The notes beneath the pieces are model-generated. The model was given only the letters and a program-made list of their open reading frames with translations. It was not told where the DNA came from and ran no database searches. DNA of 64,000 nt from the NCBI RefSeq assembly GCF_000355805.1, contig NZ_CM001837.1, forward strand, positions 1,189,408-1,253,407. The letters are read 5' to 3'. The stretch comes from Dokdonia sp. PRO95 (GTDB lineage: Bacteria > Bacteroidota > Bacteroidia > Flavobacteriales > Flavobacteriaceae). The translations under genes were made by a program, and so were the position numbers. Shown here piece by piece: positions 2,610 through 64,000 of the stretch. Every line of letters starts with the position of its first letter. The first letter of the stretch is position 1.

Positions 2610-2623
2610 GCTTTCGCGAAAGC
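2610..2623. repeat. GCTTTCGCGAAAGC palindrome, copy 1 (intergenic)
   Basis: Exact 14-bp palindrome eleven bases after the stop of the AddB-like gene. The flanks extend the symmetry to 20 bp (TATGCTTTCGCGAAAGCATA). Confidence 0.95.
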
Positions 2624-2650
2624 ATAAAAATCAACAATATCGCAAATAAA

Positions 2651-2683
2651 AAAGGCATTTACAGAAATCCTGTAAATGCCTTT
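2651..2683. terminator. Bidirectional rho-independent terminator
   Basis: Eleven-base inverted repeat (ggcatttacag and ctgtaaatgcc, five-base loop) with an A-run before and a T-rich run after. It lies between the AddB-like gene (+) and the convergent universal stress protein gene (-). Confidence 0.8.
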
Positions 2684-2751
2684 ATATCTTGGTGAAGAAT
2701 ACCAGATTAGAACTGGTCGCCTCTAGCCAAATAAGCTAATCCTCATCTATA

Positions 2752-3543
2752 TTATTGTACTCTTAAAATAAGAAGTGGTTTTGTTGTAAAAAACTCCTTT
2801 TTTAAGACCACATTTTTCTCCCAAAGTTTTTTAAAGAAACCACGTTTTCTACGCACAACACATAACATATCTGGCTCTACAGACTGGAAGTGCTCTAGCA
2901 CTCCTTGATAAGTAGTTGCATTTGTTGTGTTTTTATAAGACGCACTCATTTTTTTAAGATCATCAGATACTTCTTTCATAGCTTCGTCAGATTCTGGAGT
3001 TTCCACGTGCAACAAGTGAAGCTCTGTCCCAAAATGCTTTTGAAGCTTTCTCAATGGTTCTAAATGACGTTTTTTATCAAACTTTCCATTTTTAAAAGCC
3101 ATTAAAATATTAGAAGGCTCCTTAAATTTTTCATTTTCTGGTACTACCAGTACCGCAATATCAGTTCCTTTTACAAGCTTCCCTGTCATGTTACCTAGAT
3201 AGACCTCATCACGCACAGAGTTACTGCGTGGTGATAACACCATAAGATCTACCGGTACGTGTTTATTAAAGCGCTCTACGCCTTCTATCACACCACCTTT
3301 AATAGGGTGAGCAACTACAGATACTCCTTTATGATCTACTCCATTTACAACCTTCTCGAGCCTGCTTTCTGACTCTTCTTTAATAACAGTATTTAGCTTT
3401 GAAGCACTACCTGCTTTAGAAAACTCTTGAAAGACTGATATCGCATACACATTTGCATCAATCTCTTGTGCAAGATCTATTGCATATTGAAGCGTATTAA
3501 AAGCGCTGTCTGAAGAACCTATTGGAACGAGAATATTTTTCAT
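2752..3543 (-). CDS. Universal stress protein, tandem UspA domains
   Basis: About 263 residues forming two UspA-like halves. The N-terminal half starts M-K-N-I-L-V-P-I-G-S-S-D and reaches a G-N-M-T-G-K-L-V segment followed by the terminal strand A-V-L-V-V-P, the usual place of the UspA nucleotide-binding glycines. The second half (about residue 150 on) is more divergent. The start is set at 3543 because the UspA fold begins at that Met; an ATG ten codons upstream would add a non-conserved tail. Soluble stress proteins of this type are common in Flavobacteriaceae; the specific role is unknown. It is divergent from the acetyltransferase gene with about 48 bp between starts. Confidence 0.88.
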   Translation of the reverse strand: MKNILVPIGSSDSAFNTLQYAIDLAQEIDANVYAISVFQEFSKAGSASKLNTVIKEESESRLEKVVNGVDHKGVSVVAHPIKGGVIEGVERFNKHVPVDLMVLSPRSNSVRDEVYLGNMTGKLVKGTDIAVLVVPENEKFKEPSNILMAFKNGKFDKKRHLEPLRKLQKHFGTELHLLHVETPESDEAMKEVSDDLKKMSASYKNTTNATTYQGVLEHFQSVEPDMLCVVRRKRGFFKKLWEKNVVLKKEFFTTKPLLILRVQ

Positions 3544-3591
3544 ACTGTAACTTGTATTTTTACCTATTAACACAAAAATACTTTTTAATCT

Positions 3592-4092
3592 GTGATTGTA
3601 CCTGCAAAAAATTCAGAAATCCCTGAAATCCTTTCACTTACTCGTGCCTGTGCACAAGAAATGATCTCTAGAAATATCTTTCAGTGGAATGAGCACTACC
3701 CTACTGTCACTGCTTTTGAGCAAGATATTGCTCGTGATGAGCTCTTTCTTCTCAAAGAGAATGATAGCATTATAGGTACCATTGTATTGTCCACATTAAT
3801 GGATGATGAGTATCTAGACATTGACTGGCTTACACCATCTAAAAACAATTTGTACATCCATAGACTCGCAGTACATCCAGACCATCAAGGTCAAGGAAAC
3901 GCTCGCAAACTAATGGATTATGCATACGCTTTCGCGAAAGCGCACTCGGCACCCTCAATACGTCTCGATACTTTTTCTCAAAATAAACGCAATCAAAAGT
4001 TCTATGAGACTCGAGGTTATAAGAAGCTAGGGAGTATCTATTTTCCAAAACAAAGTGAGCACCCATTTTATTGCTATGAAAGAGTTCTGTAG
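3592..4092 (+). CDS. GNAT family N-acetyltransferase
   Basis: 166 residues with GTG start. The acetyl-CoA binding motif A is visible as L-Y-I-H-R-L-A-V-H-P-D-H-Q-G-Q-G-N-A-R-K-L (about residues 86-106), followed by the later strands (R-L-D-T-F, then F-Y-E-T-R-G-Y). The N-terminal part (L-T-R-A-C-A-Q-E-M, then I-F-Q-W-N-E-H-Y-P) matches a common Bacteroidota GNAT subfamily and supports the GTG start. Substrate unknown. A copy of the 14-bp palindrome is embedded in frame (Y-A-F-A-K-A-H) in the helix after motif A. Confidence 0.88.
   Translation: MIVPAKNSEIPEILSLTRACAQEMISRNIFQWNEHYPTVTAFEQDIARDELFLLKENDSIIGTIVLSTLMDDEYLDIDWLTPSKNNLYIHRLAVHPDHQGQGNARKLMDYAYAFAKAHSAPSIRLDTFSQNKRNQKFYETRGYKKLGSIYFPKQSEHPFYCYERVL
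3928..3941. repeat. GCTTTCGCGAAAGC palindrome, copy 2 (in GNAT gene, AFAKA frame)
   Basis: Exact copy inside the acetyltransferase gene, translated Ala-Phe-Ala-Lys-Ala. Confidence 0.95.
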
Positions 4093-5505: not shown

Positions 5506-5513
5506 GGTAATTT

Positions 5514-7585: not shown

Positions 7586-7599
7586 GCTTTCGCGAAAGC
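7586..7599. repeat. GCTTTCGCGAAAGC palindrome, copy 3 (intergenic)
   Basis: Exact copy in the 218-bp divergent gap between the antiporter and hydrolase genes, 38 bp before the hydrolase start. I see no other clear element in this gap. Confidence 0.95.
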
Positions 7600-10247: not shown

Positions 10248-12095
10248 ATGAAAAACGCTTACAAATTACTGTTGATGGTATCGTTGTTCGCTTTCGCGAA
10301 AGCGTATGCACAAAACAACACCTCTTACTGGCAACAGCACGTCGATTACGAAATGGAAATCGACATGAATGTAAAAAACTATCAGTATGATGGTACACAA
10401 AAGCTAGAGTACACAAACAACTCTCCAGAGACACTAGACCGTGTTTTCTATCACTTATATTTTAACGCGTTCCAACCTGGAAGTGAGATGGACGTGCGCT
10501 CACGCAACATTGCAGATCCAGATGGTCGTGTAAAAGATCGTATCAGTAAGCTAGCTCCAGATGAGATTGGGTTTATTAAAGTAAATAGCCTTACCCAAGA
10601 TGGTAAGCAGTTGACTTACGAAGTAGCGGGAACGGTACTTGAAGTACAGCTTGCAACTCCTATTGCACCCGGAGCAAAGACTACTTTTGAGATGGATTTT
10701 AAAGGTCAAGTACCTACACAAATACGCCGTAGTGGTCGTAACAACAAAGAAGGTGTTGCACTATCTATGACGCAATGGTACCCAAAAATGGCCGAATATG
10801 ATTTTGAAGGATGGCACGCAGATCCTTATATCGCTCGTGAGTTTCATGGAGTTTGGGGAGATTTTGATGTAAAAATCAATATTGATGAAAACTACACCGT
10901 AGGTGGTACAGGATATTTACAGGATCCAGAAGATATGGGTCATGGATATGCAGGAACTTCTATGAAGCCAGGTAAAAATGCAAAGCGTGGTAAATTACAA
11001 TGGCACTTTAAAGCACCAAACGTTCACGACTTTACATGGGCTGCAGATCCTGAGTATGTGCACGACATGATCATGGGAGAAAATGATACAGAGCTTCACT
11101 TTTTCTATAAAAATAAAGAGTCTATCAAAGCAAACTGGAAGAAACTCCAGCCTATGACGGCAGACTTACTTGCCTTTTACAACAAGCACGTAGGTACCTA
11201 TCCATATAAGCAGTACTCTGTGATACAAGGTGGTGATGGTGGTATGGAGTATGCGATGAGCACACTTATTACTGGTGAGCGCAAGTTTGGAAGCCTATTT
11301 GGTGTGACTGCACACGAGATGGCACACACTTGGTTCCAGTTCTTACTAGCAAGTAACGAAGCAAAACACGAGTGGATGGATGAAGGATTTACGTCATACA
11401 TCTCTTCTCTTGCCGAAAATGAACTTACAGGAGGTGATAATCCTAATCCGCTTTCTGGGTCGTACAGAGGCTACTATTACCTCGTTAAAAGCGGTAAAGA
11501 GCAACCACAAACTACGCACGCAGATCGTTACAACGAGAATATGCCTTACAGCATCGCTGCATATAGTAAAGGAGCAGTATTTCTTGCACAGTTAGGATAT
11601 GTTATTGGTGAAGACAATCTTAAGAAAACGCTTAAAAAGTATTTTGATGATTTTGCTTTCAAGCACCCTACACCTAACGATATTAAACGTACTGCAGAAA
11701 AAGTTTCTGGAATGGAGCTTGACTGGTATTTAATGGACTGGGCACAGACTACAAACACTATTGATTATGGTATCACAAGTGTTGAGGCAGATGGTAATAA
11801 AACAAAGGTTACGCTTACGCGAAAAGGACTTATGCCTATGCCTATAGATCTTTATGTTGATATGGCAGATGGTTCTCAAAAATCATACTACATGCCTCTA
11901 CGTATGATGCGCGCCGAAAAGCCAAACCCAACGCCAAACATCGCTCGTGAGCAACTAGCAGACTGGCCTTGGACAAACCCTACGTATACATTCACCATTG
12001 ATGCACCACTAAGTGAGGTAAAAATGATGAAAATTGATCCTACATCAATGATGGCAGATATTGATCAAACAGATAACGTTTGGGAGAAAGAGTAA
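10248..12095 (+). CDS. M1 family zinc metallopeptidase, secreted
   Basis: 615-residue aminopeptidase N-like protein. A Sec signal peptide (M-K-N-A-Y-K-L-L-L-M, then F-A-F-A-K-A-Y-A-Q) is followed by the N-terminal beta domain. The zinc site is textbook: H-E-M-A-H near 11311-11325, 18 residues, then the third ligand Glu in D-E-G-F. The exopeptidase motif appears as G-G-M-E-Y-A-M. It probably trims peptides in the periplasm or outside, consistent with the peptide-feeding habit of marine Flavobacteria. The C-region of the signal peptide is encoded by a copy of the 14-bp palindrome. Confidence 0.93.
   Translation: MKNAYKLLLMVSLFAFAKAYAQNNTSYWQQHVDYEMEIDMNVKNYQYDGTQKLEYTNNSPETLDRVFYHLYFNAFQPGSEMDVRSRNIADPDGRVKDRISKLAPDEIGFIKVNSLTQDGKQLTYEVAGTVLEVQLATPIAPGAKTTFEMDFKGQVPTQIRRSGRNNKEGVALSMTQWYPKMAEYDFEGWHADPYIAREFHGVWGDFDVKINIDENYTVGGTGYLQDPEDMGHGYAGTSMKPGKNAKRGKLQWHFKAPNVHDFTWAADPEYVHDMIMGENDTELHFFYKNKESIKANWKKLQPMTADLLAFYNKHVGTYPYKQYSVIQGGDGGMEYAMSTLITGERKFGSLFGVTAHEMAHTWFQFLLASNEAKHEWMDEGFTSYISSLAENELTGGDNPNPLSGSYRGYYYLVKSGKEQPQTTHADRYNENMPYSIAAYSKGAVFLAQLGYVIGEDNLKKTLKKYFDDFAFKHPTPNDIKRTAEKVSGMELDWYLMDWAQTTNTIDYGITSVEADGNKTKVTLTRKGLMPMPIDLYVDMADGSQKSYYMPLRMMRAEKPNPTPNIAREQLADWPWTNPTYTFTIDAPLSEVKMMKIDPTSMMADIDQTDNVWEKE
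10290..10303. repeat. GCTTTCGCGAAAGC palindrome, copy 4 (signal peptide of M1 peptidase)
   Basis: Exact copy, translated Ala-Phe-Ala-Lys-Ala just before the predicted signal peptidase cleavage after A-Y-A. Confidence 0.95.
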
Positions 12096-13675: not shown

Positions 13676-14947
13676 CTATTCCCCTATCTCCAGTAAACTA
13701 TTCCATTGCGTGGTATATCTAGGGCTGCGCTCTTCTTTGATGAGTTCCCATTCCTTGTTGCTTTTTGTGGTGCCGGATAATCCCGCAGAAACTGTAGACT
13801 TCCCGTAGCGGTTATTAATAGCATCAAAGGCTTTTATGAGACGTTTATCTCCTGTTGCTTCGGGCATAAATAGATTACCTTGTACTTGCTCCTCTGGGAT
13901 GAGACCTAGGAGGTCTACTCCTACTTTTTTATACTTAAATCCTGGCTTGTAGATTCGTTTTAAAGCTTTCTTAGCCTCTACTATGAGTATGAAAGTATCA
14001 TTTGTGGGTACAGATAAAGTGACAATGGTCTTATCTGCATGTTGAACATCATTTGTGCTGTGGTAGTTTGTAGTAAGATATATGCGCAGCTGTGTACAGC
14101 AACATTTCTGGAACCGTAGCACCTCGCTTACTTCGCTTATATAGTAGGCACAAGCCTCCTCAATTTGAGGCAGATTATCCAGTTTTTTGCCAAAGGACTT
14201 TGCGGTACCTATTGCTTTCTTCTTTCGCGGAAGCGTATCAAAAGGAATACATGATTCTCCATTGAGTTCGCGCCAGAGCCGCTCCCCTATTACCGTCATC
14301 TCCTTGCGTACCCACGCTAGCGGCAATTGTGTAAAATCATAAGCTGTGAAAACACCCACATTTGCCAGGCGTTCTACATGCTTTTTACCAAGTCCCCAAA
14401 CATCTTTTGTTTCGGCCCATTTGAGACATTCTATACGGCGTTCTTCGGTGTCCATGACAAAGACATAATTAAAGCGTGCTATCTTCTTTGAGATTCTATT
14501 GGCAAGTTTTGCAAGGACTTTAGTGGGTGCAATTCCTACGCCTACAGGAACTCCCGTGCGTCGCACAACGGAATCTTTTATTTTATGCCCATATGTTTCG
14601 AGGTTTACGTGGGTGATACCAGATAGGTCTACAAATGACTCATCTATACTATATACCTCAACGGCTGGTGAGAAGTCTCTGAGCACGTTCATCACGCGAT
14701 CAGACATATCGCCATAGAGCGTATAATTAGAAGAAAATAAGGTTACATCATTTTGAGCCAGCAACCCTTTTATCTTAAATAGCGGATCGCGATAAGGAAT
14801 ATGCGTGAGCGCTTTTGCTTCTTTATTTTTGGCGATAATACAACCATCATTATTGCTGAGTACCGCCACTGGTCTTCCTCGTAAATCTGGACGAAATACT
14901 TGCTCGCACGAGGCGTAGAAGCTATTACAATCTACCATTGCAATCAT
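13676..14947 (-). CDS. umuC: Y-family DNA polymerase, UmuC subunit
   Basis: 423-residue translesion polymerase of the DinB/UmuC fold. The N-terminus M-V-D-C-N-S-F-Y-A-S-C-E provides the first catalytic Asp; V-Y-S-I-D-E-S-F-V-D (about residues 97-106) supplies the second acidic pair; V-G-V-G-I-A-P-T-K-V-L-A-K-L-A follows. The C-terminal UmuC region ends E-R-S-P-R-Y-T-T-Q-W. It bypasses DNA lesions with a UmuD partner. The start overlaps the stop of the upstream umuD-like gene by four bases (14944-14947), indicating translational coupling. A two-mismatch variant of the palindrome lies inside at 14221-14234. Confidence 0.95.
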   Translation of the reverse strand: MIAMVDCNSFYASCEQVFRPDLRGRPVAVLSNNDGCIIAKNKEAKALTHIPYRDPLFKIKGLLAQNDVTLFSSNYTLYGDMSDRVMNVLRDFSPAVEVYSIDESFVDLSGITHVNLETYGHKIKDSVVRRTGVPVGVGIAPTKVLAKLANRISKKIARFNYVFVMDTEERRIECLKWAETKDVWGLGKKHVERLANVGVFTAYDFTQLPLAWVRKEMTVIGERLWRELNGESCIPFDTLPRKKKAIGTAKSFGKKLDNLPQIEEACAYYISEVSEVLRFQKCCCTQLRIYLTTNYHSTNDVQHADKTIVTLSVPTNDTFILIVEAKKALKRIYKPGFKYKKVGVDLLGLIPEEQVQGNLFMPEATGDKRLIKAFDAINNRYGKSTVSAGLSGTTKSNKEWELIKEERSPRYTTQWNSLLEIGE

Positions 14948-15350: not shown

Positions 15351-15366
15351 TTTTATGTGCTTTTTT

Positions 15367-15380
15367 GCTTTCGCGAAAGC
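15367..15380. repeat. GCTTTCGCGAAAGC palindrome, copy 5 (intergenic)
   Basis: Exact copy between the divergent umuD-like gene and rnpA. Confidence 0.95.
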
Positions 15381-15413
15381 GTAATACTACCACACAACCT
15401 ATTTCAATTCTAC

Positions 15414-15421
15414 TATCTTTG
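15414..15421 (+). promoter_or_regulatory. Candidate -7 element for rnpA
   Basis: TATCTTTG matches TAnnTTTG and lies six bases before the rnpA ATG, which would give a leaderless or near-leaderless mRNA. Confidence 0.45.
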
Positions 15422-15427
15422 CCAGCA

Positions 15428-15811
15428 ATGCCACATACCTATCCAAAAGCCGAAAAATTAAAGTCTAAAAAATTGATAGACACCCTTTTTATTGAGGGAA
15501 AGTCTGTAAAGTCTTTTCCGCTTAGGATGGTTTATATAGAGACCCCACTATCTACTGATGCTTATATGGTCCAAGCTGGAGTCTCTGTATCCAAGCGTAA
15601 TTTTAAGCTGGCCGTTTCTCGCAATCGCATAAAACGTTTAATGCGAGAGTCCTATCGTTTACATAAAGACCTTATAGATACAAAAGGCACGACATTTGCG
15701 ATGCTTATTTTATATACAGGCCAAGAGGAAGTCCCGCAAGCAGTTCTTCATAAGGCAATGGTCAAACTTATAAAACGTTTTAACGATGCGACAGCTCCTA
15801 CTACTTCTTAG
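15428..15811 (+). CDS. rnpA: Ribonuclease P protein component
   Basis: 127-residue basic protein that assists the RNase P RNA in maturing tRNA 5' ends. The signature V-S-V-S-K-R-N-F-K-L-A-V-S-R-N-R-I-K-R-L is clear at about residues 54-73, with the family's K-L-K-S-K-K-L-I-D-T-L-F near the N-terminus. The start is placed at 15428 (M-P-H-T-Y-P-K-A-E-K-L); an upstream ATG at 15365 would run through the palindrome repeat and the candidate promoter and is rejected. rpmH, the usual upstream neighbour, is absent. The 3' end overlaps the next gene by 26 bp. Confidence 0.92.
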   Translation: MPHTYPKAEKLKSKKLIDTLFIEGKSVKSFPLRMVYIETPLSTDAYMVQAGVSVSKRNFKLAVSRNRIKRLMRESYRLHKDLIDTKGTTFAMLILYTGQEEVPQAVLHKAMVKLIKRFNDATAPTTS

Positions 15812-16616: not shown

Positions 16617-16630
16617 GCTTTCGCGAAAGC
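16617..16630. repeat. GCTTTCGCGAAAGC palindrome, copy 6 (intergenic)
   Basis: Exact copy in the 64-bp gap between the DUF4349 gene and the S41 peptidase gene. Confidence 0.95.
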
Positions 16631-21372: not shown

Positions 21373-21386
21373 GCTTTCGCGAAAGC
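21373..21386. repeat. GCTTTCGCGAAAGC palindrome, copy 7 (intergenic)
   Basis: Exact copy upstream of rnr, with flanks extending symmetry to the 20-mer TACGCTTTCGCGAAAGCGTA. Confidence 0.95.
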
Positions 21387-25389: not shown

Positions 25390-25401
25390 TTTTTTAAATA
25401 C

Positions 25402-25415
25402 GCTTTCGCGAAAGC
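25402..25415. repeat. GCTTTCGCGAAAGC palindrome, copy 8 (intergenic)
   Basis: Exact copy 13 bases after the stop of the acetyltransferase-nitrilase gene. Confidence 0.95.
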
Positions 25416-25456
25416 GTAACACATCTCACAAAGAGCTGTTTCATAAATAATTTGAT

Positions 25457-39299: not shown

Positions 39300-39313
39300 G
39301 CTTTCGCGAAAGC
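39300..39313. repeat. GCTTTCGCGAAAGC palindrome, copy 11 (intergenic)
   Basis: Exact copy 31 bp before the first parS-like site, upstream of mnmG. Confidence 0.95.
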
Positions 39314-39344: not shown

Positions 39345-39360
39345 TGTTCCACGTGAAACA
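39345..39360. promoter_or_regulatory. parS-like ParB binding site 1
   Basis: TGTTCCACGTGAAACA fits the known parS consensus TGTTnCACGTGAAACA at every position. It abuts the mnmG ATG. Confidence 0.85.
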
Positions 39361-41253: not shown

Positions 41254-41269
41254 CGTTCCACGTGAAACA
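41254..41269. promoter_or_regulatory. parS-like ParB binding site 2
   Basis: CGTTCCACGTGAAACA differs from TGTTnCACGTGAAACA only at the first base. It lies six bases before the methyltransferase ATG. Confidence 0.8.
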
Positions 41270-41275
41270 AAGTTG

Positions 41276-42355: not shown

Positions 42356-42371
42356 TGTTCCACGTGGAATA
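42356..42371. promoter_or_regulatory. parS-like ParB binding site 3
   Basis: TGTTCCACGTGGAATA, two changes from the parS consensus on the right arm. It lies in the AT-rich 591-bp gap 42110-42700, where I see no other feature or reading frame of note. Confidence 0.65.
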
Positions 42372-46017: not shown

Positions 46018-46113
46018 TATACTTAACAGAAGTTGTGCTGGCTAGAAGTTATATCCCCTATCTTTAAAACCATACGATTTTCCCGTATCTTTCGTTCCTT
46101 GACTATGACTCTA

Positions 46114-49803: not shown

Positions 49804-49834
49804 AAATTATGCTTTCGCGAAAGGTGGTAAATAT

Positions 49835-50087: not shown

Positions 50088-50228
50088 CTGTTTTAGAAAA
50101 ACAAAGATAGTAAGAAAACAGACATACGAGCGTTAAAGTGATAAAAAGGACTTAATTGGTGCTGAGTGGTTATCGCAATCCAATTTTCGCGAAAGCGTAA
50201 AGACATCAATTATCTCATATCTAAAAAG

Positions 50229-50244: not shown

Positions 50245-51111
50245 ATGACAGAAAAAAAAGAGAAGAAAAAAAAGATTGCAAAAAAGCTACTGCATAAGTA
50301 TCGCTTAGTTATTCTCAATGAAGATACTTTTGAGGAGCGTATTTCTTTTAAACTCACACGACTCAATGTGTTTATTCTAGTAGGTATATCTGCTATTATT
50401 CTTATTGCACTTACTACATTACTTATCGCATTTACACCATTAAGGGAATATATTCCTGGTTACTCAAGCACAAAACTCAAGCGCAATGCGACGCTACTCG
50501 TTGCAAAAACAGATTCTCTTGAAAATGCAATTAGAGTAAATGAGCAATATTACTCTTCTATACGTAGAGTGTTAAGTGGAGACGTAGAGGAGCTAGAATT
50601 TGATAGAGATTCTATACGCGATGCTGTTTTTAATGATGAAGAAATATATGTGCTCCCTAGTAAGGAAGATAGCCTGTTGAGGCAAACAGTAGAGCAGGAA
50701 GACAAGTATAATGTGTTTGATAAAGCTATTGAGGATACAGATTTCTCACTATTTCCTCCTGTGAAAGGAACCATATCGTCTGCATATAATGCTAGCCAAA
50801 AACACTTTGCAGTAGATATTGTAACGGTAAAAGATGCCCCAGTAAAAGCGGCAGCAGATGGTACTGTAATTTTTGCCGAGTGGACTGCAGAGACAGGTCA
50901 TGTACTTATTATAAATCATGGTAAAAACCTTATCACTGTTTATAAGCACAACGCTTCTCTCAATAAGTCACAAGGAGCCTTGGTTCAAGCAGGTGAAGTT
51001 ATTGCCACGGTGGGTAATACAGGTGAGTATAGTACTGGACCACACTTACATTTTGAGTTGTGGAGTAATGGTTACCCTATAAATCCGACTAATTTTATAG
51101 ATTTTAACTAA
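50245..51111 (+). CDS. M23 family peptidoglycan endopeptidase, membrane-anchored
   Basis: 288 residues. Lys-rich cytoplasmic N-terminus, one membrane helix (about residues 46-68), a coiled-coil linker, and a C-terminal LytM domain with H-F-A-V-D (about 188-192), a middle His in I-N-H-G-K, and H-L-H-F-E (about 270-274), the zinc and catalytic residues. It cuts cross-links in peptidoglycan. Its stop overlaps the GH3-like start (TAATG), so the two are coupled. Confidence 0.92.
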   Translation: MTEKKEKKKKIAKKLLHKYRLVILNEDTFEERISFKLTRLNVFILVGISAIILIALTTLLIAFTPLREYIPGYSSTKLKRNATLLVAKTDSLENAIRVNEQYYSSIRRVLSGDVEELEFDRDSIRDAVFNDEEIYVLPSKEDSLLRQTVEQEDKYNVFDKAIEDTDFSLFPPVKGTISSAYNASQKHFAVDIVTVKDAPVKAAADGTVIFAEWTAETGHVLIINHGKNLITVYKHNASLNKSQGALVQAGEVIATVGNTGEYSTGPHLHFELWSNGYPINPTNFIDFN

Positions 51112-52601
51112 TGTCGATAAAGTCTTTTGGAGCAAAAATTTTTGCGTCGTACATACAGCGAAGTATAAAAAAATGGGCAGACAACCCTATTGAGACTCAG
51201 CACAAGGTTTTTGAGAGTCTTATAGATGCGGCTCAGTATACGACCTTTGGTAATGATCACCGTTTTGACACAATAAAATCGCATGCAGATTTTGTTAAGC
51301 AGGTGCCTATAAGAGATTATGAAGACTTGCGCTACTATGTAGATAAAATGGTTGCTGGAGAACCAGATATACTCTGGCCAGGTAAACCTCTTTACTTTGC
51401 AAAAACTTCTGGAACGACTTCTGGGGTAAAGTACATACCGCTTACTAAGGATAGCATGAAAACGCATCCTAACAGTGCACGTAACGCAATTCTCTCTTAC
51501 ATCGCAGAGACAGGAAATACAGACTTTGTAGATGGTAAGATGATTTTTTTACAAGGAAGCCCAGAGATGACCGAAAAGAATGGCATCAAACTAGGCCGTC
51601 TTTCTGGTATCGTCGCACATTATGTGCCTAATTATCTACAGAAGAATAGGCTTCCTAGTCTGGAAACTAATTGTATAGACGACTGGGAGCAAAAGGTAGA
51701 TGCTATTGTAGATGAAACCATAGATCAAGATATGACGCTCATAGGTGGGATTCCTCCGTGGGTACAGATGTATTATGAGCGCCTTATCCAGAAGAGTGGT
51801 AAAACGGTGGGAGAACTCTTTAAAAACTATCAGTTGTTTGTGTACGGAGGTGTAAATTATGAACCTTACCGTCGCAAGCTAGAAGATCTTATAGGTAGAA
51901 GCGTAGATAGCATTGAGTTATATCCAGCGAGTGAAGGGTTTTTTGCCTTCCAAGATTCACAGACAGAGAAAGGAATGCTGTTGCAACTAGACAACGGTAT
52001 CTTTTACGAGTTTGTAAAAGCAGATGAGTTTTTTAATGAAAACCCAACGAGAATAACGCTTAAGGATGTAGCTCTTGACGTAAATTATGTGATGATTATC
52101 TCTACCACAGCCGGTTTATGGGCTTATAACATAGGAGATACCGTGATATTTACGAGCCTTAAACCCTATCGTATCATGGTTTCTGGTAGAATCAAGCATT
52201 TTATCTCTGCTTTTGGAGAGCATGTGATAGGCAAGGAGGTAGAGCAGGCCATGCTTGAAGCCTCAGCCGAAACAGACATTAAAGTGACAGAGTTTACCGT
52301 AGCACCGCAAGTAGCACCTCAAGAAGGATTACCTTATCATGAGTGGTTTATAGAATTTGAAAATGAGGGTAGTGATGATTTGCACGCTTTCGCGAAAGCG
52401 TTAGATTCCTCACTACAAGCTCAAAACTCATACTACCTTGACTTAATCACAGGAAAGGTACTCCAGCCATTAAAAATCACGAAGGTGGTAAAAGATGGCT
52501 TTAATAATTACATGAAATCACAAGGAAAGTTAGGTGGTCAAAATAAAATTCCAAGACTTTCAAACGATCGAAAGATTGCCGATCTATTGCAATCAAAATA
52601 G
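51111..52601 (+). CDS. GH3 auxin-responsive promoter family protein (acyl-adenylating)
   Basis: 496 residues. ATP-binding T-S-G-T-T-S-G-V-K-Y-I-P-L (about residues 101-113), as in GH3 adenylate-forming enzymes that in plants join amino acids to jasmonate or auxin. Bacterial members are widespread in Bacteroidota; their substrate is unknown. Coupled by a one-base overlap to the M23 gene. A palindrome copy encodes H-A-F-A-K-A-L in the C-terminal third. Confidence 0.9.
   Translation: MSIKSFGAKIFASYIQRSIKKWADNPIETQHKVFESLIDAAQYTTFGNDHRFDTIKSHADFVKQVPIRDYEDLRYYVDKMVAGEPDILWPGKPLYFAKTSGTTSGVKYIPLTKDSMKTHPNSARNAILSYIAETGNTDFVDGKMIFLQGSPEMTEKNGIKLGRLSGIVAHYVPNYLQKNRLPSLETNCIDDWEQKVDAIVDETIDQDMTLIGGIPPWVQMYYERLIQKSGKTVGELFKNYQLFVYGGVNYEPYRRKLEDLIGRSVDSIELYPASEGFFAFQDSQTEKGMLLQLDNGIFYEFVKADEFFNENPTRITLKDVALDVNYVMIISTTAGLWAYNIGDTVIFTSLKPYRIMVSGRIKHFISAFGEHVIGKEVEQAMLEASAETDIKVTEFTVAPQVAPQEGLPYHEWFIEFENEGSDDLHAFAKALDSSLQAQNSYYLDLITGKVLQPLKITKVVKDGFNNYMKSQGKLGGQNKIPRLSNDRKIADLLQSK
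52386..52399. repeat. GCTTTCGCGAAAGC palindrome, copy 15 (in GH3-like gene, AFAKA frame)
   Basis: Exact copy in the C-terminal third of the GH3-like gene. Confidence 0.95.
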
Positions 52602-55430: not shown

Positions 55431-56549
55431 ATGAGTAATAAAGTAGCATTAATTACCGGTGTGACTGGTCAAGACGGAGCGTACTTAAGTGAGTTTTTAC
55501 TTAAAAAGGGCTATGAGGTACACGGTATTAAACGCAGATCATCTTTATTTAATACAGATAGGATAGATCACCTTTATGAAGATCCTCATATAGATAATCA
55601 GCGATTTTTTCTGCACTATGGAGATCTTACAGACAGTACAAACTTGTTTAGAATTATTCAAGAAGTACAGCCAGATGAGATTTATAACTTAGGTGCAATG
55701 AGTCATGTACAGGTATCCTTTGAGATGCCAGAGTATACAGCAAATGTAGATGGACTGGGTGCCTTACGATTATTAGAAGCTGTGAGAGCTCTAGGACTTG
55801 AAAAAAAGACGCGCATTTATCAAGCAAGTACATCAGAGTTGTATGGAAAAGTACAAGAAGTACCGCAATCTGAAACCACACCTTTTTATCCAAGAAGCCC
55901 TTATGCAGTAGCAAAACTATATGCATACTGGTCTACCGTAAATCATCGTGAAGCTTATGATATGTTTGCGTGTAACGGTATTTTATTTAATCACGAGTCT
56001 CCAGTACGAGGAGAAACTTTTGTGACTAGAAAGATCACTAGAGCTACATCAAAAATTGCTTTAGGATTACAAGATAAAATGTATTTAGGTAATCTAGATG
56101 CAAAGCGTGACTGGGGTCATGCTAAGGACTACGTAAGGATGATGTGGATGATCTTGCAAGCAGAAGAGCCAGAAGATTGGGTAATCGCCACGGGAGAGAC
56201 TACAACAGTACGTGACTTTATAAAAATGGCCTTTACACATATAGGTGTTACCTTATCTTTTGAAGGTGAAGGAATTGATGAAAAAGGAATTGTTACTGCA
56301 TCAGAAAATGCAGATTATCCTGTAAAAATAGGGCAAGTAGTGGTTGAGGTAGACCCAAAATATTTTAGACCTACGGAGGTAGAGCTTTTAATAGGTGATG
56401 CTACAAAAGCCCTCAAAAAGCTGGGCTGGAAGCCCGAATATAAACTTCAAGGTCTTGTAGATGATATGATGCAGAGCGACCTAAGGTTAATGAAAAAAGA
56501 TAGCTACCTCAAAGAAGGCGGATATAAAACGATGAATTATTTTGAGTAA
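55431..56549 (+). CDS. gmd: GDP-mannose 4,6-dehydratase
   Basis: 372-residue short-chain dehydrogenase/reductase. NADP site [10 protein letters not shown] (about residues 9-18); S-T-S-E-L-Y-G-K-V; catalytic Tyr-x3-Lys in Y-A-V-A-K; and [16 protein letters not shown], diagnostic for GMD. It forms GDP-4-keto-6-deoxymannose for GDP-fucose. Its 3' end overlaps fcl. Confidence 0.97.
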
Positions 56550-57609
56550 TACATCCATACCTACAAACGCTAGAATTTTTGTTGCTGGACATCGCGGCTT
56601 AGTGGGAAGCGCGATTGTTAATACACTTGTAGCAAAAGGCTATACGGATATAATCACGCGCACTCACAAGGAACTCGACTTAACAAACACAGTAGCAACA
56701 CAAGAGTTTTTTAAGAAAGAAAAGCCAGAATATGTTTTTCTCGCAGCTGCAAAAGTGGGTGGGATTATAGCAAATAATACGTATCGAGCAGATTTTCTTT
56801 ATGTGAATCTCATGATTCAAAACAATGTGATTCATCAGAGTTATGTACACGGAGTTAAGAAATTGTTGTTTTTAGGAAGTACTTGTATTTACCCTAAAAA
56901 TGCACCGCAACCTATGCCAGAAGACGCTCTGCTTACAGGAGCTTTAGAATATACAAATGAGCCCTATGCCATTGCCAAAATAGCCGGCATCAAACTTTGC
57001 GAGAGTTATAATTTGCAATACGGGACAGATTTCATTTCAGTGATGCCTACTAATCTTTATGGAATTAATGACAACTTCGACTTAGAGAAATCTCATGTCT
57101 TACCAGCATTGATAAGAAAGATTCACCTTGCAAAATTACTTTCAGAAGGAAAGAATGATGAGGTCTGTAGAGACTTAGATGTTTCCGCTTTCGCGAAAGC
57201 GCAACCTATACTAGAAAAGTACGGTGTAACAGCCAAAAGCGTTGAGATATGGGGAACAGGAACGCCTAGAAGAGAGTTTTTATGGAGCCAAGATATGGCA
57301 GATGCTTGTGTGCACATTTTAGAAAACACAAGTTTTGATGACGTAAGAGGAAGCACAACCGAAGTAAGAAATACACACATAAACATAGGCACAGGAGAGG
57401 ATATATCTATAAAAGAGCTAGCAACGCTTATTAAAGAAACGATAGGTTTTAAAGGACAACTAATTTTTGATAGCTCAAAACCAGATGGCACACCGCGCAA
57501 GCTTACAGACGTTACAAAACTTAATAGTTTAGGATGGAAACATACGGTAGCGCTTGAGGATGGAGTTAATAGATTATATAATTGGTATTTAGATATTAAG
57601 AACCGATAA
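56542..57609 (+). CDS. fcl: GDP-L-fucose synthase
   Basis: 355 residues, TTG start overlapping the gmd stop. N-terminal [16 protein letters not shown] site, L-G-S-T-C-I-Y-P-K, catalytic Y-A-I-A-K. It carries out the epimerase and reductase step to GDP-L-fucose, so the surface polymer should contain fucose or a derivative. It is longer than the classical enzyme by a loop around residues 198-230, and a palindrome copy (S-A-F-A-K-A-Q) sits in that loop. Confidence 0.95.
57187..57200. repeat. GCTTTCGCGAAAGC palindrome, copy 16 (in fcl, AFAKA frame)
   Basis: Exact copy in a loop of the GDP-fucose synthase gene. Confidence 0.95.
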
Positions 57610-58511: not shown

Positions 58512-59783
58512 TTGAAAAACCTTCATGAAATTAAGGCGTTAATTCATTCCTCATTTGGGAAGAGAATTTCTGTAAATTATATCTCGCTTTTACTTATTCA
58601 AGTTACAAACCTAGTATTACCTATAGTTACCTTTCCTTATCTCATCTCAATATTAGGCTTGCAGAAGTTTGGGTTGATAATGTTTGCACAAGCCATTTGT
58701 TCTGTACTTTACATTTTTGTTGATTATGGGTTTAGTCTCAGCGCAACAAGACATATAACGCTACAGAGATCTGATAAGGAAGAAATGGCAACTGTTTTTT
58801 CAACTGTCCTTCTTATAAAAATTGTAATCGCTACAAGTGTATTTATGTTATACGCTATTACTGTTTTTGTTGTGCCCAAATTTCAAATTGAAAAAGAAGT
58901 GTTTTTATTAAGCTACCTTATGGTCTTTGGACAGGCGTGCTTTGTAGATTGGTTTTTTCAAGGAATAGAAAAGATGAAAGTGATGGCACTCTTGAGTCTT
59001 TTGGCAAAAGGAGTTTTTACACTTCTTATATTTGTGTTTATACGTGATGTGTCAGATTATGTTCAAGTTCCATTCTTTATGGGTATAGGATATATTCTAG
59101 CAGGAATTCTAAGTATTATTTTAGCTTTGAAATACGTTTCCATTGTTAAACCTAGTTTCACCTTAGTAAGAAAATTATTAAGGGAAAGCTTTAGTTTATT
59201 TGTGTCTAACCTCGCTGCTAGATTGATTAACACTATTCCCATCTTAGTGCTAGGTTTCTTTGTTAATGAGTCTACAGTAGCTATTTACACAAGTATGGAA
59301 AAGCTTATCACAACTTCAAAAGGGGTCTTTGTTTCCCTATATCAAGCGTTATTTCCATGGTTAGTTAGTCAAACACGTGTAAAACAGAGAGAATACGTAA
59401 TAAAAATGTTACCTATAGTTGGCTTACTTGCAATTATGGTTACACTACCATTCCTAATTTGTGGAGGATGGCTGTTAAACATATTGTATGATAATGTAGC
59501 TATAAATGAAAATAGTTACCTTTTCTACATACTTGCACTTAATATCATTTTCACTAGTTATTTTATGCTATTTATTGCCCATTATTTTCCAGCGGTTGGT
59601 GATTTTATGTCTCGATTGAAGACATTGGCTTTTTCAGCTGTTTGCGGGATTATAATAGGCTTAATTTTTATCAGTCAGCTTGAGATACTTGGAGCAGTTA
59701 TCACGGCGGTTTCTATAGAAGCTATTCTATTAATATTCTCAATATATTACTTTATTAAAACGAGACCTGTTGGAACTATCTAA
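58512..59783 (+). CDS. Wzx-like oligosaccharide flippase
   Basis: 423 residues, TTG start, with about 12 hydrophobic helices of the polysaccharide transporter family. It should move lipid-linked repeat units across the inner membrane. The TTG is supported by the run M-K-N-L-H-E-I-K-A-L-I before the first helix. AT-rich like the following genes. Its end overlaps the glycosyltransferase start by 14 bases. Confidence 0.88.
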   Translation: MKNLHEIKALIHSSFGKRISVNYISLLLIQVTNLVLPIVTFPYLISILGLQKFGLIMFAQAICSVLYIFVDYGFSLSATRHITLQRSDKEEMATVFSTVLLIKIVIATSVFMLYAITVFVVPKFQIEKEVFLLSYLMVFGQACFVDWFFQGIEKMKVMALLSLLAKGVFTLLIFVFIRDVSDYVQVPFFMGIGYILAGILSIILALKYVSIVKPSFTLVRKLLRESFSLFVSNLAARLINTIPILVLGFFVNESTVAIYTSMEKLITTSKGVFVSLYQALFPWLVSQTRVKQREYVIKMLPIVGLLAIMVTLPFLICGGWLLNILYDNVAINENSYLFYILALNIIFTSYFMLFIAHYFPAVGDFMSRLKTLAFSAVCGIIIGLIFISQLEILGAVITAVSIEAILLIFSIYYFIKTRPVGTI

Positions 59784-60852
59784 AGATAAAAAGTTGATTA
59801 TTATTCAAACGGCTGTCCCAGATTATAGAAAAGGTTTCTTTAAAGCCTTGAGAGATAATCTAGGGGATAATTTTGAGTTGTATAGTGGTAGTCACTATTT
59901 TGAAAAATCTATACAGTCTGACGCGACAATCCCTTATAAGAAAACTAAGAACACTTACCTTTTTAACGCTAGATTTTTAATTCAATTTCAAATCATAAAA
60001 TTAATAGCGAGTGATAACCTGTTAGTGCTTGAACTCAACCCTAGAATAATTTCGAATTGGATATTATTGATAGGTAGAAAAATTTTAGGTAAACAAACGA
60101 TACTGTGGGGTCACGCATGGCCACGACAAGGTAAAGATGCTAGTACTGATAGTTTAAGACATCTCATGCGTAAACTAGCAAGGGCTATAGTAGTATATAC
60201 TAATAAACAGCAATTAGAACTTCAAGAGAAAATGCCCCGTAAAATCATTCTCGCAGCACCTAATGCACTTCTCAATACATCTCAAATGGGTGCAATTGCT
60301 GGAAACCCTAAACACCTTATTTATGTGGGGCGTTTAACAGAAAGTAAAAAAACACTTTTTCTTGCAAAGGCATTTAGCAAAGCACTTAATGATATTCCAA
60401 ACGATGTACAGCTTTTTATTGTAGGAGATGGAGAAGAAAAGGAGGCTCTAGAATCATTTATAATAGAAAACAACTTGTCTCACAGAATACATTTGCTGGG
60501 CCATATAAATGATATAGCTCGATTGAGAGAATTATATAGCAACAGTTATTTTAGTGTTTCTCCTGGTTACGTTGGGTTGTCTGTAACTCAAAGTTTTGGT
60601 TTTGGTGTACCTATGATCGTTTCAAGAGATGAAAACCATTCCCCAGAAATTGAAGCAGTTTTAGATGGTGTAAATGCTCTTTTTTTTGATACTAATAGCG
60701 AATTAAGCTTTCGCGAAAGCTTAATAAATATGTACAGCAATATTGATTTATGGACATCAAGAAGAGATGAAATTGCCGCATTTTGCGCCAAAAATTATTC
60801 TGTAGAGGCAATGGCTCAAGTATTTTGTAAATTGTTAAATACTAAGAGGTAA
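59770..60852 (+). CDS. Glycosyltransferase family 4-type
   Basis: 360 residues, TTG start. GT-B fold: N-terminal half with L-I-I-I-Q-T-A-V-P-D-Y, C-terminal half with I-Y-V-G-R-L-T-E-S-K-K, I-V-G-D-G-E-E-K-E-A and F-G-F-G-V-P-M-I-V-S-R. The acceptor and sugar are unknown. A palindrome copy (60707-60720) is read here as S-F-R-E-S, the third frame. Confidence 0.88.
   Translation: MELSKDKKLIIIQTAVPDYRKGFFKALRDNLGDNFELYSGSHYFEKSIQSDATIPYKKTKNTYLFNARFLIQFQIIKLIASDNLLVLELNPRIISNWILLIGRKILGKQTILWGHAWPRQGKDASTDSLRHLMRKLARAIVVYTNKQQLELQEKMPRKIILAAPNALLNTSQMGAIAGNPKHLIYVGRLTESKKTLFLAKAFSKALNDIPNDVQLFIVGDGEEKEALESFIIENNLSHRIHLLGHINDIARLRELYSNSYFSVSPGYVGLSVTQSFGFGVPMIVSRDENHSPEIEAVLDGVNALFFDTNSELSFRESLINMYSNIDLWTSRRDEIAAFCAKNYSVEAMAQVFCKLLNTKR
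60707..60720. repeat. GCTTTCGCGAAAGC palindrome, copy 17 (in glycosyltransferase, SFRES frame)
   Basis: Exact copy in the third reading frame, S-F-R-E-S; the only copy in this frame. Confidence 0.95.
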
Positions 60853-62181: not shown

Positions 62182-62222
62182 TTAGAATGGGTTTAGTTGA
62201 AAATATTCAAGTTTAAAGATGT

Positions 62223-63668
62223 ATGCTAGGTAAACTCATATTGATGTTATCTTATCTACTGATAAGTATATTTCTATTTGCAACATTCAGTGCAGATACT
62301 TCTGTATGGATATCATTCTTTATAAGTAATCTCTTATTATTTGGGATGTTCTGGTGGCATTTGTATCAAGAGAAAGAGTTTTCTCCTTTCATTTCTGTGT
62401 TTCTTGTCTTTAGCTTTCTGTTTTTCATACTTTCTCCGCTTCTCCAAGTAGGAGAATTAAACCTTACAAATGGAGTTTTCATAACTAAATTAAAATACTC
62501 CCAAGCGGCAATTGTACACACAAATGTACTTGTAATCATATTCAACCTGACCTTTGCTGTAGCATATCTTTATTTTAAAAAGTTTCGAAAACTGAGAGTT
62601 ATTCCAGTTTATGATCAGACCAAATATAAAGCCCTGCCAGTACTAATTAGTATAATCTCTATCGCTACAGTGCTAGTGTTTATTGCTAGCTTCGGTTTTG
62701 TACAAGAAGAAATAAGAAGACATAGTGGGACACCCTCGTCTGCGTCAATAGGGATGCTATTGTTGTGGAAAAAGGTGCTATTTATGATGCCATTTGCAGG
62801 AATCGTACTATGCTTTCAATATTTTGAGAAACGAAAAAAACTACCAATAAACATTATTATTGTAGCCTTACTTTTCTTAATTCTTGGAGCGTTTTTATTG
62901 TGGTTTAAAAACCCCTTGACAGAAAAGCGCAACGCTTTAGGTCCCATTTATATTTGTATTATATTCTTGATGGCACCTAGATTACTTAATAGCAATGTTA
63001 AAATGACGCTATTTATGTTCTTTTCAATGATTATAGTTTTCCCACTCTCTGCCATACTTACACATGTGACAGCCACGTTTGAGGAGATTTTAGACAGACC
63101 TAGAGTGTTATTGGACAGTTTTGAAGGTTATGGTATAGGTCAGGTTTTTAATACATTACACTATGATGCCTTTATAAATATTACAGCAACCTTAGACTAT
63201 GTAAAATATGAGGGCTTTTCATACGGTTATCAATTGCTAAGCGGTTTATTATTTTTTGTTCCTCGTAGTCTATGGGAGACAAAACCCACAACCACTGGAA
63301 AATTAGTTGGTGAACATCTTATTGAATATCATGGGTTCCATTATAGTAATTTATCTAATCCACTAGTATCTGAGGGTTATATTAATTTTGGGATTTTTGG
63401 AGTCGTTATGATGGCTATTTTTCTCGCAATTACATGTATAAAGCTTCTTTCATGGTTTAAAAGCGACGACTATCTTAAGAAGATTTTAGCACTTTACTTT
63501 GCTATACATTTATTATTCTTATTGAGAGGTGATTTTGCAAATGGCTTTTCTTATTACATTGGCATCTTTGTCGGAGTTTATATACTTACGCGCTTTTTAC
63601 AATATATAATGGAACAGATGTTTTTAAACCAGAAATCATGGAAGGCAAAACATAAGCAACGTATATAA
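62223..63668 (+). CDS. Oligosaccharide repeat-unit polymerase (Wzy-like)
   Basis: 481 residues with about 12 hydrophobic segments and a long loop around residues 285-385 (G-L-L-F-F-V-P-R-S-L-W, then N-P-L-V-S-E-G-Y-I-N-F-G), typical of Wzy-type polymerases. It is the second polymerase/ligase-like protein in a row, so one may be polymerase and the other ligase. The start is ATG 62223, 41 bp after the preceding gene. Confidence 0.78.
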   Translation: MLGKLILMLSYLLISIFLFATFSADTSVWISFFISNLLLFGMFWWHLYQEKEFSPFISVFLVFSFLFFILSPLLQVGELNLTNGVFITKLKYSQAAIVHTNVLVIIFNLTFAVAYLYFKKFRKLRVIPVYDQTKYKALPVLISIISIATVLVFIASFGFVQEEIRRHSGTPSSASIGMLLLWKKVLFMMPFAGIVLCFQYFEKRKKLPINIIIVALLFLILGAFLLWFKNPLTEKRNALGPIYICIIFLMAPRLLNSNVKMTLFMFFSMIIVFPLSAILTHVTATFEEILDRPRVLLDSFEGYGIGQVFNTLHYDAFINITATLDYVKYEGFSYGYQLLSGLLFFVPRSLWETKPTTTGKLVGEHLIEYHGFHYSNLSNPLVSEGYINFGIFGVVMMAIFLAITCIKLLSWFKSDDYLKKILALYFAIHLLFLLRGDFANGFSYYIGIFVGVYILTRFLQYIMEQMFLNQKSWKAKHKQRI

Positions 63669-63785
63669 AGAAGCCTTATACTATGCAATTTTATAAGTTA
63701 ATATACGCATCATTTTGAACTGTAAAAAGTGATTTACTTATCTGTATTTTTGATTGTTTTCACTTCTAATATTTCCAAGTAGCAA

Positions 63786-64000
63786 ATGCACATAGTCCAA
63801 ATACATAATAGATATAAAGACATAGGCGGTGAAGATATTGTTGTGAGTCGAGAAAAATTGCTACTAGAGTCTGCAGGTCATAAAGTCTCTCAATATATTG
63901 TAAATAACAATGATATTAATACGCTTTCGCGAAAGCTAAAAACGGCATTGTCGCTACCATATTCGGTTTCTCAAAAGAAATTAATTAAGGCATTTTTAAA
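63786..64000 (+). CDS. Glycosyltransferase, N-terminal fragment (3' partial)
   Basis: ATG at 63786, open to the window edge (71 codons). The N-terminus H-I-V-Q-I-H-N-R-Y-K-D-I-G-G-E-D-I-V-V-S, then E-S-A-G-H-K-V, is characteristic of GT4-type glycosyltransferases whose donor/acceptor fold starts G-G-E-D. A palindrome copy (63923-63936) is read T-L-S-R-K-L. It belongs to the polysaccharide cluster. Confidence 0.82.
   Translation, partial: MHIVQIHNRYKDIGGEDIVVSREKLLLESAGHKVSQYIVNNNDINTLSRKLKTALSLPYSVSQKKLIKAFL
63923..63936. repeat. GCTTTCGCGAAAGC palindrome, copy 18 (in glycosyltransferase, LSRK frame)
   Basis: Exact copy near the right edge, L-S-R-K frame. Confidence 0.95.

Follow-up and report, generated by a model that had tools for sequence, protein, structure and literature searches.

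A high-copy 14-bp palindrome in Dokdonia sp. PRO95 and its possible function as a genome-wide DNA signal

The palindrome in the window and along the chromosome

The window analyzed here is a stretch of 64,000 nt of the Dokdonia sp. PRO95 chromosome (NZ_CM001837.1), in which a 14-bp palindrome recurs inside and outside open reading frames (ORFs). The initial annotation had listed 18 exact copies, and all 18 were recovered at their starts, with none appearing in 100 dinucleotide shuffles. The four imperfect copies that it had named (14221, 28277, 49811, and 50183) turned out to be the sole further sites at two mismatches or fewer, so that 22 such sites, exact ones included, are present in the window, against a shuffle mean of 0.25. 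The flanking bases were likewise as described, with C preceding the core in 14 of the 18 copies and G following it in 12. The copies are given below with window-based positions; no strand is assigned to them.

2610-2623: exact copy, 10 bases past the long ORF 149-2599 and inside the short antisense ORF 2389-2658
3928-3941: exact copy, within the GNAT acetyltransferase ORF 3592-4092 (+)
7586-7599: exact copy, divergent intergenic (7418/7637), exact also in the relatives G399, G401, G397, and G402
10290-10303: exact copy, AFAKA frame, near the N terminus of the M1 peptidase ORF 10248-12095 (+)
14221-14234: two-mismatch copy, TCTTTCGCGGAAGC
15367-15380: exact copy, on a doubtful TTG start, ORF 15365-15811 (+)
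16617-16630: exact copy, intergenic (16607/16654)
21373-21386: exact copy, intergenic (20115/21494)
25402-25415: exact copy, between long ORFs (25389/25679), overlapping the short antisense ORF 25131-25424
28277-28290: two-mismatch copy, exact in G397 at the aligned place
30284-30297: exact copy, AFAKA frame, tRNA-synt_1c ORF 28364-30400 (+), exact in G399, G401, G397, and G402
34809-34822: exact copy, gltX-like ORF 33584-35101 (-), where G402 (75% identity) differs without a gap
39300-39313: exact copy, intergenic, upstream of mnmG, with a parS-like site 32 bases further on
41485-41498: exact copy, LSRK frame, methyltransferase ORF 41273-42109 (+), exact in 14 of 17 genus rows, including that of the window
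46165-46178: exact copy, AFAKA frame, near the N terminus of the SLT/LysM ORF 46033-47727 (+)
47314-47327: exact copy, AFAKA frame, the second in the SLT/LysM ORF 46033-47727 (+)
49811-49824: one-mismatch copy, exact in G401 at the aligned place
50183-50196: one-arm variant, ATTTTCGCGAAAGC, a recurrent second form
52386-52399: exact copy, AFAKA frame, GH3 ORF 51111-52601 (+), exact in 5 of 5 relatives compared
57187-57200: exact copy, AFAKA frame, epimerase ORF 56542-57609 (+)
60707-60720: exact copy, FRES frame, ORF 59770-60852 (+)
63923-63936: exact copy, past ORF 62223-63668

The seven copies that had been called intergenic (2610, 7586, 16617, 21373, 25402, 39300, and 63923) do lie outside long ORFs, with the caveat that those at 2610 and 25402 overlap short ORFs on the antisense strand, 89 and 97 aa long, respectively. 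At copy 10290, the N terminus of the M1 peptidase ORF looks, in our reading, signal-peptide-like. The second form, [AT]TTTTCGCGAAAGC, was found 39 times in 844 kb of the window's genome.

The whole-genome count, which had been proposed as a check, returned 794 copies in 3,305,093 bases, corresponding to one per 4.2 kb, and no copy of the reversed control word. Two outcomes that had been named as fatal to a selected site, namely, a count near expectation and presence in this window only, are thus at variance with the data. The shuffles and the genome-wide count rule out chance or a local artifact as the origin of the palindrome, which is confirmed as a real, high-copy, and chromosome-wide feature of the Dokdonia genome. 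Over 464 kb, exact, one-mismatch, and two-mismatch sites numbered 110, 11, and 36, against averages of 0, 0.025, and 1.0 for 40 composition-matched palindromes.

Placement, spacing, and conservation of the copies

The core belongs to a symmetric extended element of about 54 bp, in which the 14 bp are flanked by GTAA on each side and by about 15 G-poor bases in each 3' arm, and both intergenic and coding copies present the symmetric GTAA and the G-poor arms. In 844 kb of the window's genome, crude gene calling placed 109 of 207 copies between genes and 98 inside them, superseding a still cruder calling in which 44 of 110 copies were coding and 66 intergenic, and the intergenic density exceeded the genic one 8.5- to 9.3-fold. 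The density of copies per kb was 1.13 in divergent, 1.14 in tandem, and 1.24 in convergent gaps, and the lack of an orientation preference speaks against a terminator or promoter role. The arms of one copy paired no better than arms taken from different copies, no T tract was present in the flanks of the palindrome, and a helical phasing, to which flanking T peaks near +5, +14, and +24 had pointed, was unsupported (permutation P = 0.70). Among 245,155 called residues, AFAKA was encoded by the palindrome in 67 cases and by other sequences in 6, and a codon-pair bias in such peptides does not by itself account for the word, given the intergenic copies. The equal intergenic densities, the three frames, and the arms unpaired beyond chance agree with the initial proposal of a DNA-level site selected genome-wide, as opposed to a hairpin or a protein domain.

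The copies repel one another. In the Dokdonia stretches, with the exception of locus L213, which is probably a repeat of that of G412, 9 pairs lay within 1 kb of each other where 66.5 were expected; the window's genome alone gave 8 such pairs against 50 expected, and only 2 of 99 successive gaps were shorter than 1 kb, against 20.6 expected. Furthermore, the counts per 20 kb were sub-Poisson over 37 stretches (variance/mean, 0.44). No preferred spacing was found beyond this short-range exclusion, nor was an origin-terminus trend detected in the same number of stretches, with the origin assumed from GC skew (Spearman, -0.20; P = 0.24). The E. coli Chi site, of similar density (61 sites in 250 kb, one per 4.1 kb), shows no repulsion, with 13 close pairs against 14.8 expected. 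The few close pairs were also considered as pointers to an autoregulated reader protein, an idea that was dropped, as the neighbors of three close pairs in the window's genome (a fourth, L033, was left aside) included no reader candidate; these neighbors encode topoisomerase IB, SAICAR synthetase, PhoH, kynureninase, an FMN-binding protein, a radical SAM protein, an M20 peptidase, and a peroxidase.

Orthologous copies were exact in 15 of 17, 13 of 16, 12 of 16, 10 of 13, and 6 of 11 alignable cases in five relatives at 93, 91, 79, 75, and 74% identity, respectively (1, 2, 2, 5, and 7 of the 18 copies being unalignable), where identity raised to the 14th power predicts exactness of 35, 26, 3.8, 1.9, and 1.6%. 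Coding orthologues without the palindrome presented no gap of the word's length at the site, and in genes the palindrome changes by substitution. For the coding places, a REP/BIME or small insertion element is ruled out by the lack of word-length gaps and of hairpin pairing beyond chance.

Among 397 sampled Flavobacteriaceae genomes, hundreds of copies were present in six, two of which belong to Dokdonia, three to a second genus, and one to a third, and 74 further genomes contained low counts of 1 to 19 copies (e.g., 16 to 19 in g77 and 17 in G051). In Leeuwenhoekiella, the sister genus, the counts were 6 and 9, and the three motif-rich genera stand apart in a single-gene tree and do not form one clade. 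The hypothesis that low-count copies represent an ancestral parS-like set was ruled out in 13 loci from 7 of the 74 low-count genomes, other than g77 and G051.

Possible functions of the element

In the sources cited here, uptake sequences, which are named for two families, Neisseriaceae and Pasteurellaceae, are highly conserved, occupy permissive and mostly intergenic sites with a spacing matched to conversion fragments (PMC2397512), and originate by point mutation, with a contribution of AT-rich flanks (PMC7811141). Their even spacing is presented as one view, the evenness of the USS falling short of what compaction would need (PMC1939737), and the USS distribution is given as uneven in PMC7811141. 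On the features compared, the Dokdonia palindrome appears closer to uptake sequences than to HIP1, though the resemblance is incomplete. Hundreds of exact dispersed copies, a flanking preference, an intergenic bias, permissive coding places, substitution-type change, strong conservation, and presence in resident phage (HP1) are the points of likeness with the DUS and USS. In the same sources, however, the DUS and USS are not palindromes (PMC1939737), whereas the Dokdonia element is palindromic and longer; the USS are denser, about 1 kb apart (PMC7811141); uptake sequences often form close inverted pairs (PMC2397512), with 109 USS pairs within 14 bp in a single strain of H. influenzae (PMC7811141), in contrast to Dokdonia, where such pairs are almost lacking; and the DUS are reported to be absent from recently acquired genes (PMC2397512), whereas the Dokdonia-type word is found in island genes. 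Moreover, the latter spans three genera not forming one clade, compared with the two families of the uptake sequences.

It is possible to hypothesize, tentatively and with less than even confidence, that the palindrome is a genome-wide signal working in the manner of the Neisseria and Haemophilus uptake sequences, by way of a putative sequence-specific reader. We infer the existence of this reader and its recognition of the palindrome during DNA exchange: the putative protein would bind the 54-bp site as double-stranded DNA, probably as a dimer, given the symmetry of the site and its arms; DNA in which copies recur at least every few kilobases would be treated as own in uptake or recombination; and copies would accumulate by preferential exchange and purifying selection. 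All 18 genomes searched from the three motif-rich genera have a ComEC-type channel, but the same holds for all 15 motif-poor genomes, and ComEC therefore explains nothing about specificity. The T2SSE/PilB-PilT ATPases (PF00437) were over the cutoff in 3 of 10 motif-rich genomes but not in that of the window. Since they are missing in the other seven, these genomes cannot rely on the pilus-driven uptake known from bacteria with uptake sequences, which counts against the uptake reading that we prefer, as does the fact that the searches for a reader yielded no candidate. Riemerella columbina, of the same family, favors its own DNA (PMC7965970). Our searches returned no relevant literature on Dokdonia competence and no occurrence of the 14-mer, nor, judging by titles and the opening of abstracts, any relevant occurrence of TTTCGCGAAA.

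Chromosome organization by a nucleoid protein, which would occupy the roughly 800 spaced sites and, at the few-kilobase scale, fold, tether, or insulate the DNA, seems somewhat unlikely to us, even though a long symmetric site of protein type, its exactness, and its DNA-level placement would suit such a function, as would the sub-Poisson counts, the mutual exclusion, and the avoidance of close pairs, which is unlike uptake sequences. The near absence from Leeuwenhoekiella and the abundance in two unrelated genera would be odd for core architecture, the origin-terminus trend and a preferred spacing past the exclusion distance were not observed, and some phages and islands carry sites. parS and Noc-binding sites are palindromes of similar length with TTTC/GAAA-like half sites, as in the Dokdonia element. 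An identity with them was nevertheless rejected, as parS-like sites exist apart from the palindrome (39346, 41255, and 42357) and ParB shows no consistent change: of 11 Dokdonia genomes, 10 had one ParB_N match, as did the four genomes of g11 and g191, and an alignment of 10 motif-rich and 19 motif-poor rows contained only two weakly diagnostic columns. Improbable, in our judgment, is a self-marker limiting a defense or repair nuclease, Chi-like yet bidirectional because palindromic. Chi of E. coli (GCTGGTGG) has a near-identical density, and a patchy distribution with carriage by phages and islands would suit a transferable defense system; but Chi is oriented, 8 bases long, and not mutually exclusive, so that the palindrome, which has no orientation and repels its own copies, is not Chi itself. 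In addition, a 54-bp site of double-strand type is unlike an 8-base strand signal, and it can be argued that hundreds of sites would have to predate the nuclease.

The initial annotation had compared the palindrome with HIP1 (GCGATCGC) of cyanobacteria, likewise a highly iterated, clade-specific palindrome with no agreed role. The analogy is fair; it is incomplete in that HIP1 has 8 bp (PMC4390886), whereas the Dokdonia word is another one, with a 14-bp core in about 54 bp, G-poor arms, avoidance below about 1 kb, and an abundance limited to three genera among those sampled. An orphan DNA methyltransferase acting on a HIP1-like modification site would account for a palindrome iterated within and between genes, and alternate HIPs of cyanobacteria are linked with methyltransferases (PMC4390886). 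The mutual exclusion would, however, be left unexplained, and a C5 DNA methyltransferase match, the one enzyme class searched, is absent in 5 of 11 motif-rich genomes, a result that counts against conserved C5 methylation and lends no support to the modification site first suggested. The preference over about 54 bp extends far past known methyltransferase sites. All this makes the methylation hypothesis very unlikely. Still harder to credit is a transcription element, whether terminator, insulator, or site of a global regulator: although more than half of the copies are intergenic and the core could fold as a short hairpin, it is at odds with the many copies inside genes, the near-equal density in the three types of gaps, the flanks without a T tract, and arms that pair no better than across copies.

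Phages, plasmids, and islands carrying the palindrome

Returning to the uptake reading, if it were true, the palindrome would add another independent example of one signal saturating a genome, in this instance longer and palindromic and with a measured exclusion distance, and such a signal would occur in genomes mostly without pilus ATPases. With a motif-rich genus and a motif-poor sister (Dokdonia and Leeuwenhoekiella) at hand and named strains available, comparative genomics could be used to look for the reader, and its identification would make the question of why genomes gather one signal word directly testable. In a broader and more speculative form, which we regard as unlikely, the palindrome-rich genomes would share a pilus-independent, palindromic self-DNA tag in Bacteroidota, whose putative double-strand-binding reader would have been acquired independently by three unrelated genera or transferred among them, with the 54-bp tag adopted by phages and efflux/metal-type islands and marking a gene exchange community.

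Some phage contigs and mobile-looking efflux islands do carry the palindrome, which is present in island genes of other genera. A BLAST search with a 30-base consensus matched two plasmid and seven phage records, none of them by name from the motif-rich genera. Five virus records contain 4 to 7 copies in 24 to 40 kb, and a tyrosine integrase was found in only 4 of 15 motif-bearing records, many of which are fragments; both observations count against the uptake reading. To judge from the islands and phage contigs, the palindrome may mark DNA that once resided in these hosts. The Haemophilus phage HP1 contains 17 USS in 32 kb, and thus the carriage of the palindrome by phages fits the uptake-sequence reading.

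Copy number and anatomy of the element

The solid results of our analysis are that the word is highly iterated in the genome, forms a long, symmetric and strongly conserved site, has an exclusion distance that we measured and is scattered in its distribution. All 18 exact copies of the 14-mer reported in the window by the initial annotation were recovered, with none in 100 dinucleotide shuffles, and allowing up to two mismatches gave 22 words, the extra four being precisely the imperfect copies it had named. The genome-wide count that it had proposed returned 794 exact copies in the single contig of 3,305,093 bases that makes up the chromosome, versus 0 for the reversed word. In 464 kb of the window's genome, exact, one-mismatch and two-mismatch words numbered 110, 11 and 36, versus averages of 0, 0.025 and 1.0 for 40 palindromes of the same composition. 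The 14-mer was not found in the literature searched for it.

Each arm extends beyond the core as G-T-A-A, and from there to about +19 its 3' side is poor in G: across 206 copies, the two arms average 1.03 and 1.10 G at +4 to +19 versus 2.98 in the genome, and 35% of the arms, versus 4% in the genome, contain no G there. The G-poor arms are alike in intergenic and coding copies and are also present in genus g11. A second recurrent form has one changed arm, [AT]TTTTCGCGAAAGC, mostly after T-C/T-A-A/C (n = 39 in 844 kb), and three doubly altered words had no occurrence in 464 kb. With these arms the element measures about 54 bp and is symmetric, the form that we would expect of a dimer-binding site on double-stranded DNA. 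It forms no extended hairpin, since arm-arm complementarity is no better than chance, in agreement with the earlier view that it is not a REP hairpin. Helical periodicity in the flanks was tested and found unsupported. The second half-site, roughly TCAAATTTTCG, substitutes one palindrome arm, never both in the part checked, at 50183-50196 and in 38 more cases; it may represent a different use of the same putative reader.

Placement, spacing and conservation

In 844 kb of the window's genome, analyzed with our own crude gene calls, 109 of the 207 copies are intergenic (58 tandem, 28 divergent, 20 convergent, 3 at stretch ends) and 98 are genic (67, 20 and 11 in the frames encoding AFAKA, LSRK and FRES, respectively), corresponding to 1.14, 1.13 and 1.24 copies per kb in tandem, divergent and convergent gaps and 0.133 in genes. 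These peptides are written as the motif versus otherwise in 67 versus 6 (AFAKA), 20 versus 8 (LSRK) and 11 versus 4 (FRES) cases.

Close pairs are avoided. Among the chromosome's first 99 gaps, 2 are shorter than 1 kb versus 20.6 expected (CV, 0.67 versus 0.99), and the window's genome alone has 8 pairs below 1 kb versus 50 expected. In pooled Dokdonia stretches, some of them orthologous between species and hence not fully independent, the pairs observed versus expected are 9 versus 66.5 below 1 kb, 12 versus 32.2 at 1-1.5 kb and 22 versus 31.3 at 1.5-2 kb. The replication origin is probably close to the window, because the sign of the GC skew flips roughly there and three parS-like sites (GTTCCACGTGRAAY type) surround mnmG (39346-39359, 41255-41268 and 42357-42370). 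No trend of copy count with distance from the origin was detected (Spearman, -0.20; p, 0.24; 37 stretches of 20 kb), with the origin assumed at the GC-skew change and the window and three stretches left out.

At aligned places the exact word is kept in 15/17, 13/16, 12/16, 10/13 and 6/11 cases in relatives at 93, 91, 79, 75 and 74% identity (1, 2, 2, 5 and 7 of the 18 window places, respectively, had no alignment), where unconstrained decay would leave from 35% down to 2% of exact words. A methyltransferase gene has its copy exact in 14 of 17 rows, counting that of the window. One substitution separates 8 of the 17 differing words, including all 5 from the two closest relatives; two imperfect window copies are exact in a relative at the aligned place, and where a coding orthologue lacks the word, the alignment has no gap of motif length.

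Distribution among genomes and in mobile DNA

Dokdonia are the nearest named relatives of the window's genome, and the only 3 of 80 named loci around gltX with the 14-mer belong to this genus. A survey of 397 Flavobacteriaceae genomes, an even sample of a larger group, found at least one copy in 80, of which 74 have 1-19 and six 408-857; we call motif rich a genome so counted whole or so sampled.

Exact copies in the six motif-rich genomes counted whole
Dokdonia, genus of the window's genome: G000 (the window's genome), 794; G206, 857
Genus g11: G010, 578; G242, 664; G394, 609
Genus g191: G190, 408

Exact whole-genome counts within Dokdonia cover two genomes; other species were sampled by stretches of 70-75 kb, with 17 (G399), 18 (G401), 19 (G397), 19 (G402) and 11 (G412) copies. 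Leeuwenhoekiella has 6 and 9 copies, and G076 (16) and G287 (19), both of genus g77, and G051 (17; g52) stand above other motif-poor genomes. Among 395 genomes across the phylum, a sample without g11 and g191, the 12-mer TTTCGCGAAAGC is abundant in the window's genome only (901 on one strand and 909 on the other), the next-highest count being 14 and 17 in G042. In G190 (L272-L278; GC, 46%), 140 kb hold 17 exact and 11 one-mismatch words with weaker flanks, and in this third genus the less exact motif may be decaying or young. A GltX tree (140 rows; a single-gene tree in which G190, among others, has a long branch) places Dokdonia beside Leeuwenhoekiella and g11 and g191 elsewhere, implying three state changes for motif richness, at least two of them forced by well-supported branches.

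In 7 of the 74 genomes with low counts, we read 13 stretches (L001-L013) in which copies cluster; by our reading, efflux or metal-type genes hold about 24 of their 34 copies, and the others lie elsewhere. Pfam supports these gene types by example (RND pumps [ACR_tran], the outer-membrane efflux protein OEP and P-type ATPases, one of these ATPases having heavy-metal domains); the small Fur-like gene had no Pfam match at 1e-10. Most comparisons of the efflux gene between genera give 68-78% identity, and its two motif places are exact in 5/7 and 6/7 sequences. We read these stretches as DNA that once resided in motif-rich hosts, and the motif may be a tracer of island origin. The conserved places of the motif in efflux and metal-type genes of these other Flavobacteriaceae include a pair 933 bp apart in an outer-membrane efflux gene.

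A virus scan gave at least 120 stretches with the motif, and the 18 picked by base composition, repeated copies and flanks represent 15 records among the matches listed, taken as examples and not as a census. Five records among the matches listed (G792, G793, G795, G798 and G802) hold 4 to 7 copies in 24-40 kb; the G+C of the loci read is 0.36-0.48. Terminase, portal, head, tail, primase and integrase genes were found across the four records examined (G789, G792, G795 and G802), and a tyrosine integrase in 4 of the 15. In virus contigs L068, L119, L146 and L153, all four with such phage genes, and also in L085 and L086, the motif density is close to that of the host, a feature that could aid phage-host assignment.

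Comparison with known sequences and candidate readers

The closest functional analogue of the element would be an uptake or self-recognition sequence, but we claim no membership in that class: the pilus machine is absent from most of the motif-rich genomes tested, and the avoidance of close pairs sets the element apart. Known uptake-sequence bacteria have a pilus machine, whereas T2SSE ATPases pass the cut-off in 3/10 motif-rich and 4/30 motif-poor genomes, which led us to reject pilus-driven uptake as a general explanation; a search for a ComEC-type channel found one in 33/33 genomes, of which 18 belong to the three motif-rich genera. Uptake sequences often occur in close pairs, whereas the Dokdonia element avoids them. 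Phage carriage is no argument against uptake, since Haemophilus phage HP1 has 17 uptake words in 32 kb, where 50 shuffled words average 0.28. According to PMC7811141, USS originate through point mutation and have AT-rich flanks, an uneven distribution and frequent close pairs. For DUS, PMC2397512 reports strong conservation, permissive, mostly intergenic sites, a spacing that fits conversion fragments, an origin partly from recombination and not point mutation, occurrence also as close inverted repeats and absence from recently acquired genes. Even spacing of uptake sequences is, in PMC1939737, one author's view contested by another.

The strongest rival is that the element organizes the chromosome. 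As a yardstick, the 61 Chi sites in 250 kb of E. coli (one per 4.1 kb) do not exclude one another (13 pairs below 1 kb versus 14.8 expected), unlike copies of the Dokdonia motif. A second ParB as reader was rejected, one ParB_N match being found in 10 of 11 Dokdonia genomes and likewise in four g11/g191 genomes; the exception, G398, has a second match in a 616-aa protein. In the ParB alignment, only two columns distinguish, and weakly, the 10 motif-rich rows from the 19 motif-poor ones. HIPs are linked to methyltransferases in PMC4390886; here, a conserved methyltransferase of the C5 type, the type searched, was discarded as reader, since 5 of 11 motif-rich genomes lack a match while 14 of 30 motif-poor genomes have one. 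In one g11 species (G394), the motif lies within a parB stretch (L395, position 1675), giving LSRKR in the ParB linker, and five further parB neighborhoods (L392 and L397-L400) have one copy each in 2.5 kb.
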